Source: Haematococcus lacustris (Eukaryota; Chlorophyta; Chlorophyceae; Chlamydomonadales; Haematococcaceae). Taken from it: 64,000 nucleotides of DNA. The notes beneath the pieces were generated by a model. That model had not been told where the DNA came from and searched no databases. It was given only the letters and a program-made list of their open reading frames with translations. A program made the position numbers and the translations under genes. This document shows, piece after piece, positions 164 to 48,293 of this stretch (its first letter is position 1; each line of letters starts with the position of its first letter). Location of the stretch: assembly GCA_030144725.1 (NCBI GenBank), contig JASKMD010000003.1:2810991-2874990 (forward strand). The letters run 5' to 3'.

Positions 164-250
164 CCCTAAGCGAGAATCATACCACTAGACCAAGTTCCCT
201 GGGATCAGGGGAGAGGGGAACTACGGGAATTGAACCCGTGACCTCTCGCA
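164..250 (-). tRNA. Permuted tRNA-Pro(AGG), unit 1, type a
   Basis: Read on the minus strand, the 3' half comes first (250-215): T38, anticodon 3' stem GCGAG, variable loop AGGTC, T arm ACGGG-TTCAATT-CCCGT, acceptor AGTTCCC, discriminator C. A 15-nt spacer follows (214-200), then the 5' half (199-164): acceptor GGGAACT, D arm, anticodon stem CTCGC, loop TTAGGG with anticodon AGG. Joining at 37/38 gives a 72-nt tRNA with full acceptor, anticodon and T stems. The B box (GGTTCAATTCC) therefore lies upstream of the A box (TGGTCTAGTGG). A TTTT run (153-156 on this strand) follows the 5' half. CCA is not encoded. Permuted tRNA genes are established in C. merolae; expression here is inferred. Confidence 0.9.
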
Positions 251-45900: not shown

Positions 45901-48293
45901 AAGCATAAAGTAGATGCTATGAATACCAGAGATGCTTATCATGGAGCCTTATGGCACACGGCACAGCAGATGGCAGTAGCTGGGTTTACATGTGCGGGGA
46001 ACATGCCATGATTGCTGGTACTATTAGGCTAGCCTTATAAAACAGGATATCTTGCTGTAGAGCATCATCAATAGTGAGATAAGGCACACTGACTTGCGAG
46101 AGGTCACGGGTTCAATTCCCGTAGTTCCCCTCTCCCCCGATGTGCTGGGAACTTGGTCTAGTGGTATGATTCTCGCTTAGGGAGTTGCCTTTTGTGCACC
46201 ATGTCGTGTGCTGAACATGGTAACTTACTAGCACACTGATCGCATCGTACACGCACACTACACACAGGTGGTGTATGCTCCAGCTCTCGAGCAGTTAGCC
46301 ACTCGGGTGGCAGAACGCAAGCAAGCGGCTGCAACCCAAACATCCCAGGCAGGAGAGACCGTGTGGCAAGCCTACTTAAGGCGCCGCAAGGAGAAGAAGA
46401 AGGAGCGTAAGACGAGGGTGAGGTGGTGGTGTGTGGCTATTAGCTTAGTTTTGCGGGAGCTGCAGCACCCTCAACAGAAACGCACCCTTAACTGCCCGTG
46501 TCTTTTATTGTTTTGATTGGCTCGCAGAGGAAACGAGGCGTAAACAGCTCTGATGACGATGATGACGATGACAGCATTGCTCTTGCTGGAGTTCAAGGCA
46601 AGACTGCAAAGGCAAAAGTAAGTGGCTGACCCTGGCATGCTCCGCTACAATACATGCACGAGCATGTGCTATGCTTGCATTAAGCAATACCTTGTGTTCT
46701 TCCCATGAGTGTTTGCCAATGCTAGCTGCGCATAGCCGTGCATCAGCAATGCTTAGGTGCTCTCTCATGGCCCTCTTTCTCTTCCCACACTGCCATTCCA
46801 TCATCCCATGCTATGCCTCCAGCATCAATAGTTTCGAATTCACGCTTTCCCTCTCCTGCCTCCTGTTTAGCAGCCAGGCTACGCCAATAGCAACTGCGCC
46901 TTGATAGGTGCTGGTGAACAAACCCACCGGCTGGGTCCCCTCCCAACCCACCACGACGTATTGCTCAGATCACACTTGATGCCACTGTGGTGCGCCTGCA
47001 GGCAGCAGCTGCACAGCCAGGCTCCGACGCTGACGAGGACCCCTGGAACGATCCCTTCTTCAACCAAGAGGGTGAAGGGGTTGAGCTGGGGGCGCCGGCC
47101 ATCCCGAGCAGCGACGACGAGGAAGGGACTGGTGCAAACGCACGACGCAAAGGCGCTGCGGGGAAAGCTGCGGGGCATGACAGAAAGAAAGGCGGCGAGC
47201 GAAAGGGCAAAAAGTTGCTAGGCAGCGGCGGGGGTGGCGAATTAAAGACGGATGGAGGTGGCAGCGGGGCGGCAGAGCTGGAGTTACTGCTGATGGACGA
47301 TCAGGCGCTGCGATGGGCAGCAACACGCGGGCCTCCGGGCAGCCTGGCTTCCGGGGCACCACACGCTGTTACTGATACACGCCAAGACCGCCAGGTCGGG
47401 AAGTCCAGAAATGGGCAAGGCGCTGGCGACTTGACCGGCGCAGCGTTACAAGGGCAGCAGCCAGCAGGCAGCAAGCCCGACAAAAAGGTTCGGTCGGCCA
47501 AGCCCGGCAGCAAGGCGGCGCGTCAGCGCGAGGCAGCTGCGGAGGAGGCGGAGGAAGCTGGCGGTTTCCACGCGAACCTGGCGGACGTGCGCTTCCAGAA
47601 CCTCTTCACGGACCACAACTTTGCATTAGACCCTACTGACCCGCGGTAAGCGCGCACTGCCGCCATTGACATGTCGCGTTCATGCCATTGTCCAGCTTGC
47701 CCACAACGCGCTGCCTGGCTGCCACTCCTGGCGCAGCCTCCAATCACAGCCACAGTGCTGCTAGGGTGCGTCGTGTGCTATACCTCAGCCGATGCAGTCA
47801 CCCTCTTTTACGTGGGGTTGGGTGTGGGGCTGCCGAGTTGAACACATCAGCCCAGCAGCTCAAGCTGGTGGGCCAAGCTGCCTCGTGTCTCCCATGACGT
47901 GCGCTGGGAGGGTGGGCTGCTTCTTGTGCATTGCTCACCCCTGCACTCACCCCTGCCTGTTCCAGGTTCAAGGCGGTGGCCAAGTCAGAGGCAGGCACCC
48001 TGCTCAAGGCACAGCAGACCGCGCTGGCCAAAAAAACAAGGCTACAGCAGCAGCAGCAGCAGCAGCAGCAGCAGCGCCAGGGGCAAGGGGTCAGCAGTGG
48101 CAGTGAGCTGGCAGCCTCTCAGCTGCAGGCTAATGCCACACAGCTCGGTGCAGTTGGTGGCAATGCAGCAGAGCTGAAAGCCATGGTGGCCAAACTGAAA
48201 CGCAAACAGCAAGCAGTAGAGCAGCAGCAGCAGCAGGGTGGAGCAGGGGGGGCTGGGCAGCCAGCCTCTGGGGCAAAGCGAGTGAGAGTGTAG
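36949..48293 (+). CDS. ESF1: ESF1 homologue, nucleolar pre-rRNA processing protein (18 exons)
   Basis: Exons: 36949-37186, 37311-37369, 37804-37878, 38062-38422, 38719-38933, 40053-40168, 40433-40511, 40937-41020, 42066-42463, 42971-43115, 43689-43757, 44457-44521, 45059-45202, 45612-45810, 46268-46417, 46528-46617, 47002-47645, 47966-48293. All junctions are GT-AG, every phase agrees, and the sum is 1,152 residues. Known ESF1 segments appear in order: [135 protein letters not shown]1 is an essential factor for 18S rRNA processing in yeast. Acidic, Ser-rich and Gln-rich linkers make it longer than the human protein. A TGTAA lies at 48502. Introns hold several microsatellites, a dispersed repeat fragment and a permuted tRNA gene. 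Confidence 0.95.
38431..38641. repeat. (CCCCTC)n array in ESF1 intron 4
   Basis: About 35 near-perfect CCCCTC units over 211 bp, starting a few bases after the exon 4 donor. They make long poly-Pro, poly-Gly, Gly-Glu and Gly-Arg frames that are not genes. Confidence 0.97.
39715..39823 (-). repeat. Dispersed fragment of the 2,998-bp repeat unit in ESF1 intron 5
   Basis: Its reverse complement matches 9335-9456 (and 6345-6450, 971-1076), from CAGCAGTATCCATTGAAGC through ATGCTGCTCACTAACCC to CATCATCAAGCCCAACAAC. It shows that part of the tandem unit also exists as a dispersed element, with an end near the point where unit 3 stops. The short motif TTGAGTTGTGGCGATGAC also recurs at 39459. Confidence 0.85.
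40217..40341. repeat. (GGGGAT)n array in ESF1 intron 6
   Basis: About 20 GGGGAT units on the sense strand, capable of forming G-quadruplexes in the pre-mRNA. Met-Gly and Gly-Asp open frames across it are artefacts. Confidence 0.97.
41403..41458. repeat. (GCCC)n tetranucleotide tract in ESF1 intron 8
   Basis: Around ten GCCC/CCGC repeats followed by CCGT units. The same intron also holds three copies of a 25-26-bp direct repeat (CTCCTGGTGGTGTGTCTGG) at 41647-41720. Confidence 0.9.
42773..42928. repeat. (CCCTGA)n array in ESF1 intron 9
   Basis: Twenty-six uninterrupted CCCTGA units on the sense strand, ending 43 bp before the exon 10 acceptor. The unit resembles but differs from plant and algal telomere repeats (CCCTAAA/CCCTAAAA), so I do not call it telomeric. 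Confidence 0.97.
44637..44747. repeat. (CAG)n array in ESF1 intron 12
   Basis: An almost uninterrupted CAG repeat with one GAG/CAGGAG break at about 44681. It lies in an intron by the splice model (donor 44522, acceptor 45058), so the Gln/Ser/Ala frames are not translated there. Confidence 0.95.
46095..46182 (+). tRNA. Permuted tRNA-Pro(AGG) inside ESF1 intron 14
   Basis: The 3' half is 46095-46130, the spacer 46131-46146 (16 nt), and the 5' half 46147-46182, all on the plus strand. Both halves are identical to the array copies. TTTT lies at 46190-46193. It sits in the sense orientation within the 457-nt intron between ESF1 exons 14 and 15. Similarity to the array copies fades within roughly 15 nt on either side, although the CACACTG block upstream and GCCTTTTG downstream are shared. 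The leader next to T38 reads GACT and cannot form the adjacent 4-bp helix of the array copies; a 6-bp helix AAGGCA/TGCCTT (46081-46086 with 46186-46191) is possible instead. Confidence 0.88.

Follow-up and report, generated by a model that had tools for sequence, protein, structure and literature searches.

A multicopy family of circularly permuted tRNA-Pro(AGG) genes in Haematococcus lacustris

In a window of 64,000 nucleotides (nt) from the green alga Haematococcus lacustris (assembly GCA_030144725.1, contig JASKMD010000003.1, positions 2,810,991 to 2,874,990; all positions below are those of the window), the transfer RNA (tRNA) for proline with the anticodon AGG is encoded six times, and each time its 3' half stands before its 5' half. 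From this order, a working tRNA could arise only through closure of the RNA to a circle and its re-cutting. This raises the question of whether such reversed sequences are working genes or remnants of duplication, and, if they work, of how a tRNA would be made from them. We find that the six loci are genuine and well formed, and that they make up a multicopy family of permuted tRNA-Pro(AGG) genes of type II, in which the break lies between positions 37 and 38. Judging from their sequence, they are very probably functional nuclear genes, whose product is probably matured via a circular RNA.

Anatomy and detection of the permuted genes

Read 5' to 3' on its own strand, every locus opens with a 36-nt 3' half that runs from T38 to the discriminator C; a spacer follows, and then a 36-nt 5' half (G1 to G37). 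The spacer has 15 nt in the loci that we call type A (164, 5538, 8536) and 16 nt in types B and C (2365, 7739, 46095). The six coordinates given in a preliminary description of this DNA proved exact, and the order and distance that it claimed for the halves hold at all six loci. The tRNA that it expected on joining at 37/38 was also recovered, as ARAGORN called tRNA-Pro(agg) for each of the six sequences joined in silico, with a complete cloverleaf and an intact anticodon loop. The 5' half does not differ among the copies, and the 3' half is the same in five of them. The copy at 8536-8622 carries one C-to-T change in the T stem, by which a C-G pair becomes a G.U pair and pairing is kept; the stem described as perfect is so in five copies, but not in this one. 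The spacers of the three types (200-214, 2401-2416 and 46131-46146) all start with TCTCCCC directly after the discriminator base and differ in the remainder. This shared start may have a role in the cutting of the 3' end, or, in the precursor, its pairing partner may be GAGAGG of the 3' half.

The distinctness of these loci was examined against chance. Allowing up to three mismatches, we counted six matches in the window for a 23-nt core of the 5' half and likewise six for a 26-nt core taken from the 3' half; in 100 shuffles neither core matched. In addition, we scanned for tRNAs permuted with a 37/38 break, where a T-arm was accepted when at least 6/7 acceptor pairs and at least 4/5 anticodon pairs were found with a downstream 5' half and the joined sequence passed ARAGORN. 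The scan accepted six of the 19 T-arms in the window, exactly the six loci; 50 first-order Markov windows offered 531 T-arms, of which one was accepted. Conventional detection gave a different picture, since ARAGORN with default settings called no colinear tRNA in the unjoined window and Rfam at gathering thresholds gave no match there; permuted genes can thus escape annotation. When introns were allowed, ARAGORN reported one doubtful tRNA-Gly at 17307-17496, within a long low-complexity open reading frame (ORF). With a lowered score threshold it made 191 calls, which were set aside as noise on the first 24 of them.

Searches beyond these loci gave little of the same kind. On viral contigs, the search for a permuted tRNA-Pro gave a single match, which consisted of two adjoining colinear tRNA-Gly genes and was rejected as a false positive of the pattern; the viral scan with the core of the 5' half gave no match. 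A scan of contigs found one colinear tRNA-Pro(TGG), at 4242-4313 of a contig filed as a bacterial metagenome-assembled genome (Haloplasmataceae). The joined tRNA differs from it once over 38 nt (linear positions 8-45), at the first anticodon base; this tRNA is eukaryote-type and its contig probably eukaryotic contamination, so that it served only as a colinear reference. Within the window, the 'outer' half-gene remnants expected under a model of duplication and loss were not found. The best extra match is an exact 18-nt match to the T-arm part of the 3' half at 18605-18622 (minus strand). It lies in a long ORF of low complexity, where no tRNA was called nearby, and is possibly a tRNA relic.

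Table 1. Positions of the permuted tRNA-Pro(AGG) genes, their flanking elements and their surroundings. BHB, bulge-helix-bulge; Pol III, RNA polymerase III.
Feature	Position	Strand	Details
Type A, copy 1 (A1)	164..250	minus	3' half 215-250, spacer 200-214 (15 nt), 5' half 164-199
Type B, copy 1 (B1)	2365..2452	minus	3' half 2417-2452, spacer 2401-2416 (16 nt), 5' half 2365-2400
Type A, copy 2 (A2)	5538..5624	minus	3' half 5589-5624, spacer 5574-5588, 5' half 5538-5573
Type B, copy 2 (B2)	7739..7826	minus	3' half 7791-7826, spacer 7775-7790, 5' half 7739-7774
Type A, copy 3 (A3)	8536..8622	minus	3' half 8587-8622 (one C-to-T), spacer 8572-8586, 5' half 8536-8571
Type C, single copy	46095..46182	plus	3' half 46095-46130, spacer 46131-46146 (16 nt), 5' half 46147-46182
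TTTT, Pol III terminator-like, type C	46190..46193	plus	8 nt after 5' half
TTTT, A1	153-156	minus	+8; likewise +8 in A2 and A3
TTTT, B1	2349-2352	minus	+13; likewise +13 in B2
TATA-like TTATAA, type C	46035..46040	plus	-60
GCATCA, type C	46062..46067	plus	-33; 27 nt after start of TATA-like box
TATA-like TTATAG and GCATCA, A1	304..309 / 280-285	minus	-59
TATA-like TTATAG and GCATCA, A2	5678-5683 / 5654-5659	minus	
TATA-like TTATAG and GCATCA, A3	8676-8681 / 8652-8657	minus	
Weaker TATA-like TTGTAG and GCATCA, B1	2507..2512 / 2480-2485	minus	-60
TTGTAG and GCATTA (one change), B2	7881-7886 / 7854-7859	minus	
Leader of type C	46075..46094	plus	BHB-like (hBH) site possible by pairing of its end (AAGGCACACTGACT) with anticodon loop and trailer
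Leader equivalents of A and B copies	251-270, 2453-2472, 5625-5644, 7827-7846, 8623-8642	minus	from alignment of A2, B1 and C
Tandem array	1..9440		unit of ~2998 bp with one A and one B gene; right copy truncated near 9440
Proposed GT-AG intron of ESF1-like gene	45811..46267	plus	457 nt; holds type C in sense; splice junction read from sequence

Flanking signals and the proposed route to a tRNA

The loci have further signals that go unmentioned in the preliminary description: ones resembling those of Pol III genes on both sides of each gene, and a possible pairing of leader and trailer. A TTTT starts 8 nt (types A and C) or 13 nt (type B) past the 5' half in all six copies, and none lies inside a gene, spacer included; the background for TTTT is 239 of 18122 random 17-nt stretches (1.3%). 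Upstream, TTRTAR is found at -59 or -60 in every copy, as TTATAR in the four copies of types A and C and as TTGTAG in the two of type B; its background over the window, with these genes counted in, is 141 starts per 127994 3-nt windows. A second element, GCATCA, lies at -35 in type A and at -33 in B1 and C, and is a candidate start-site element. The composite TTRTAR-N16-24-GCATCA occurs five times on both strands of the window, all at these genes, and 8 times in 100 Markov windows. Apart from GCATCA, no 6-mer outside the last 13 nt is common to the upstream stretches of A2, B1 and C at the tolerance used; with B2 in the place of B1, no common 6-mer was found in that part. A shared 6-mer arises by chance in 98 of 100000 random triples and in 4 of 100000 shuffles of the upstream stretches of A2, B2 and C.

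The leader and trailer of all three types possibly form a splice-site-like structure, as read from an alignment of A2, B1 and C. In each of these, the leader sequence CTGR can form a 4-bp helix with T32-G35. The resulting candidate site has a 3-nt bulge (two leader nucleotides and T38) beside the anticodon stem, which places the cut at 37/38. In the outer helix between leader and trailer, two pairs are altered on both sides between the types. Furthermore, 96.3% of the 81 cells of the alignment pair in the proposed register, in comparison with 28-53% when it is slid by 1-3 columns.

On these elements a route to the tRNA can be proposed. The upstream TATA-like box, and not the inverted A and B boxes, would recruit Pol III, and a short transcript of leader, 3' half, spacer, 5' half and trailer would end at TTTT. 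Pairing of leader and trailer beside the anticodon stem would create the BHB-like site; the tRNA splicing endonuclease would cut at 37/38 on both sides, and a ligase would join the ends to give a circular RNA, from which the 15-16 nt spacer would be excised by RNase P and tRNase Z ahead of CCA addition. The mature tRNA-Pro(AGG), once charged, would read CCU and CCC codons. Type C might additionally ride in the precursor mRNA of an ESF1-like gene, while its own box and terminator are present. The same pathway of permuted algal tRNAs (Pol III acting from an upstream element, endonuclease, circle, RNase P and tRNase Z, CCA) is described in the available text of a 2014 review, which terms several of the enzyme assignments probable (PMC3978253).

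Several observations weigh against this account, and most of them concern the splice-site fold. Only three sequences were compared, and shuffles equalled their covariation score in 43 of 500 cases and their percentage of paired cells in 97 of 500. With the tRNA stems forced, shuffled leaders and trailers equalled or outdid the real ones in folding in 305 of 500 cases for type A, 107 of 500 for B and 49 of 500 for C; the energies thus give the fold no support. The unconstrained minimum-energy fold is tRNA-like for the type C precursor, but not for those of A and B, and a competing continuous helix of leader and trailer that reaches the splice site is available in all three types. On the side of the promoter, the motif was picked after the sequences had been viewed, which makes its figures descriptive; type B has no clear TATA but only TTGTAG, and B2 has GCATTA instead of GCATCA.

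Locus types, surroundings and alternative explanations

The preliminary description spoke of six genes. Six loci do exist, but their independence was overstated. The A and B copies were duplicated with the ~3 kb tandem unit, and there are therefore three independent locus types, A (three copies), B (two) and C (one), and not six events. Along the array, which extends past the left edge of the window, A and B alternate. Two of its units differ at 10 of 2612 positions, and the tandem amplification of the A/B unit is recent. Type C lies 37 kb from the array. When the loci were compared by BLASTN with 600 nt of flank, the similarity of A, B and C comprised the gene with 10-12 nt upstream and 5-12 nt downstream, the rest being short matches at chance level; the sole other long match in the flanks, between A2 and B2, joins corresponding stretches of two array units. 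In the alignment of A2, B1 and C, 72 of 72 tRNA positions are alike while the flanks are unrelated, and this counts for working genes.

Against this conservation we have weighed the idea that the permuted copies are decayed or silent by-products of tandem duplication, or of a reverse-transcribed circular pre-tRNA, with normal tRNA-Pro genes acting elsewhere. Five of the six copies do lie within a recent tandem array, one has a changed T stem, and the restriction of similarity to the gene unit is what a retro-copy would leave. However, decay is not what is seen in a tRNA that is unaltered across three types in surroundings without long similarity, and the single change in the family preserves pairing. 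TTTT and the TATA-like box moreover recur at the three types, together with the possible splice-site pairing, and we consider the by-product explanation improbable.

Two further readings take the loci for something other than permuted genes. Adjacent copies could be colinear genes with introns, if splicing across the array united the 5' half of one with the 3' half of its neighbour; in the array, a 5' half does precede another 3' half on the same strand (the A3 5' half ends at 8536 and the B2 3' half starts at 7826). The shortest such 'intron' would measure about 709 nt, however, a TTTT follows directly after each 5' half, and type C stands alone 37 kb off, where the window offers no other 3' half close enough to be joined; we give this reading hardly any weight, the least of all those considered. 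It is also very unlikely, if slightly less so, that the loci are tRNA-like elements with another role, such as the head of a retroposon resembling a short interspersed nuclear element or a source of tRNA fragments, or that type C is processed from the ESF1 intron instead of being transcribed separately. A core of about 100-112 nt common to dispersed copies would fit the former and the nesting of type C in sense within the proposed intron the latter, but no long common body or tail is found past the tRNA unit in the 600 nt of flank, the cloverleaf and its anticodon loop are whole, and a TATA-like box and a TTTT belong to type C itself. The family is thus best explained as functional permuted genes.

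As regards the surroundings, an insertion of ~2376 bp (about 2622-4997) splits one array unit only, with the empty site in the neighbouring unit near 7990. The inserted element has long CAG-type repeats, 18-nt inverted arms at 2619-2636 and 4812-4829, and 30/51-bp repeats near 4554-4715. The region 10274-15565 resembles a long interspersed nuclear element (LINE), with a Gln-rich first ORF, which had no Pfam match, and then an ORF for endonuclease and reverse transcriptase (1137 aa). For the latter (12152-15565), 19 relatives stand among the matches listed (best 7995 candidates scored). Seventeen of these are predicted proteins of Haematococcus lacustris, to which the ORF is 84-99% identical over part of its length; the best has 99% identity over 85% of the query, and the two others have 46% and 37%. 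The preliminary description had placed this DNA in a core chlorophyte, rightly, as these relatives are from Haematococcus lacustris, which belongs in the NCBI taxonomy to the core chlorophytes, Chlorophyceae, Chlamydomonadales.

Type C is proposed to be nested in an intron of an ESF1-like ribosome-biogenesis gene, which is seen as several exons on the plus strand of the window (36778-47649). On the same strand, Pfam gave RRM_ESF1 (E 2.7e-20) in the ORF 42768-43235 upstream of type C and NUC153 (E 5.8e-7) in the ORF 46918-47646 downstream of it, and no match in the ORFs 36778-37245 and 38427-39137 of the supposed gene. The spliced frame across the proposed intron is, we assume, ESF1-like, and a motif near 37.1 kb, without Pfam match, is presumably that of the ESF1 N-terminus. 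PDB searches with two of the exons were of no help, as one gave only repeat-driven matches and the other none.

Comparison with known permuted tRNA genes and significance

The available text of the 2014 review puts the permuted tRNA genes at 34, spread over six unicellular algae and one archaeon; nearly always, an anticodon has a single entry in a species (PMC3978253). None of its entries is for proline and none is from Chlorophyceae, and Chlamydomonas reinhardtii is said there to have none. Green algae and nucleomorphs supply 21 of the entries, of which 20 have their break at 37/38, with spacers between 5 and 64 nt long. Repeated isotypes in that account are Gly(CCC) of Cyanidioschyzon merolae, with two genes for the same tRNA, and Ser(CGA) of Ostreococcus tauri, found twice with different breaks (PMC3978253). 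In a report of 2015, one more chlorarachniophyte nucleomorph has permuted Ser genes and two others have none (PMC4494063, as available); one of 2025 describes permuted tRNA genes in Auxenochlorella (PMC12636532). The available text of three other papers adds no permuted tRNA case (PMC13353863, PMC4033280, PMC8450103).

The closest likeness is to the type II genes of the prasinophytes Ostreococcus and Micromonas and of the Bigelowiella nucleomorph, which share the 37/38 break and a short spacer, have a splice site of hBH type (a possible structure in Haematococcus), almost always have no intron, and in some cases have an AT-rich stretch upstream (PMC3978253). Their isotypes are Ser, Leu, Cys, Arg, Asn and iMet, with at most two entries per anticodon in a species, whereas Haematococcus, in Chlorophyceae, has Pro(AGG) in three locus types and six copies, with a tandem array and an intron-nested copy. 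C. merolae, with types I-IV, is alike in its upstream TATA-like box and T-run, and in the circular RNA pathway that is proposed for Haematococcus; unlike our alga, it is a red alga with breaks at several positions, several of its genes have introns too, and its TATA lies within 50 bp upstream, in contrast to about 60 in Haematococcus (PMC3978253). The archaeon Thermofilum pendens shares the circular permutation and has a junction of BHB type, as is possible in Haematococcus, but has a 59/60 break, introns and an encoded CCA (PMC3978253). Auxenochlorella UTEX 250-A is alike in having reversed 5' and 3' halves in the nuclear genome of a core chlorophyte (PMC12636532), to which group the NCBI taxonomy also assigns it, and unlike in belonging to another green algal class, the Trebouxiophyceae.

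With the Auxenochlorella report of 2025, the claim to a first case in a core chlorophyte therefore falls. The part of the earlier novelty claim that concerns a multicopy family stands within the literature searched, where the matches listed, judged largely by title or start of abstract, held no report of a permuted tRNA from Chlorophyceae, of a proline one or of so large a family. For Haematococcus itself, the matches listed gave no report of a permuted tRNA by title or start of abstract. The word 'tRNA' is absent from three of its genome papers (PMC10400597, PMC12613990, PMC6330051), and a fourth mentions tRNA only for organelles or in its references (PMC7617258). Among the matches listed, the literature on 'tRNA genes' of Haematococcus is mostly on organelle genomes. 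The kind of gene is itself known, though rare; what is notable here is the proline isotype, the lineage, the copy number, the tandem amplification and the intron-nested copy.

Most hosts of permuted tRNA genes have small genomes. For Haematococcus, abstracts give a genome of 151 to 316 Mb. It is conceivable, at somewhat less than even chances in our estimate, that the permuted form has fully replaced the ordinary tRNA-Pro(AGG) gene in this alga, as a multicopy, dispersed and tandem-amplified family with its own upstream promoter, and that the reading of CCU and CCC codons depends on circular RNA. Permuted genes that have no colinear counterpart for their anticodon are seen in some species, though type II genes need not be of this sort. 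If true, the surprise would rest on permuted genes being the sole source of tRNA-Pro(AGG) in a large genome. Full replacement in a large, transposon-rich genome would contradict the view that such genes persist mainly in tiny, streamlined ones. In addition, the recurrence of TATA-like box, TTTT and possible start element in three unrelated flanks makes transcription without the normal arrangement of A and B boxes testable. A multicopy permuted family in a large, repetitive chlamydomonadalean genome would show that permutation does not keep tRNA genes from being amplified and maintained as ordinary ones are.

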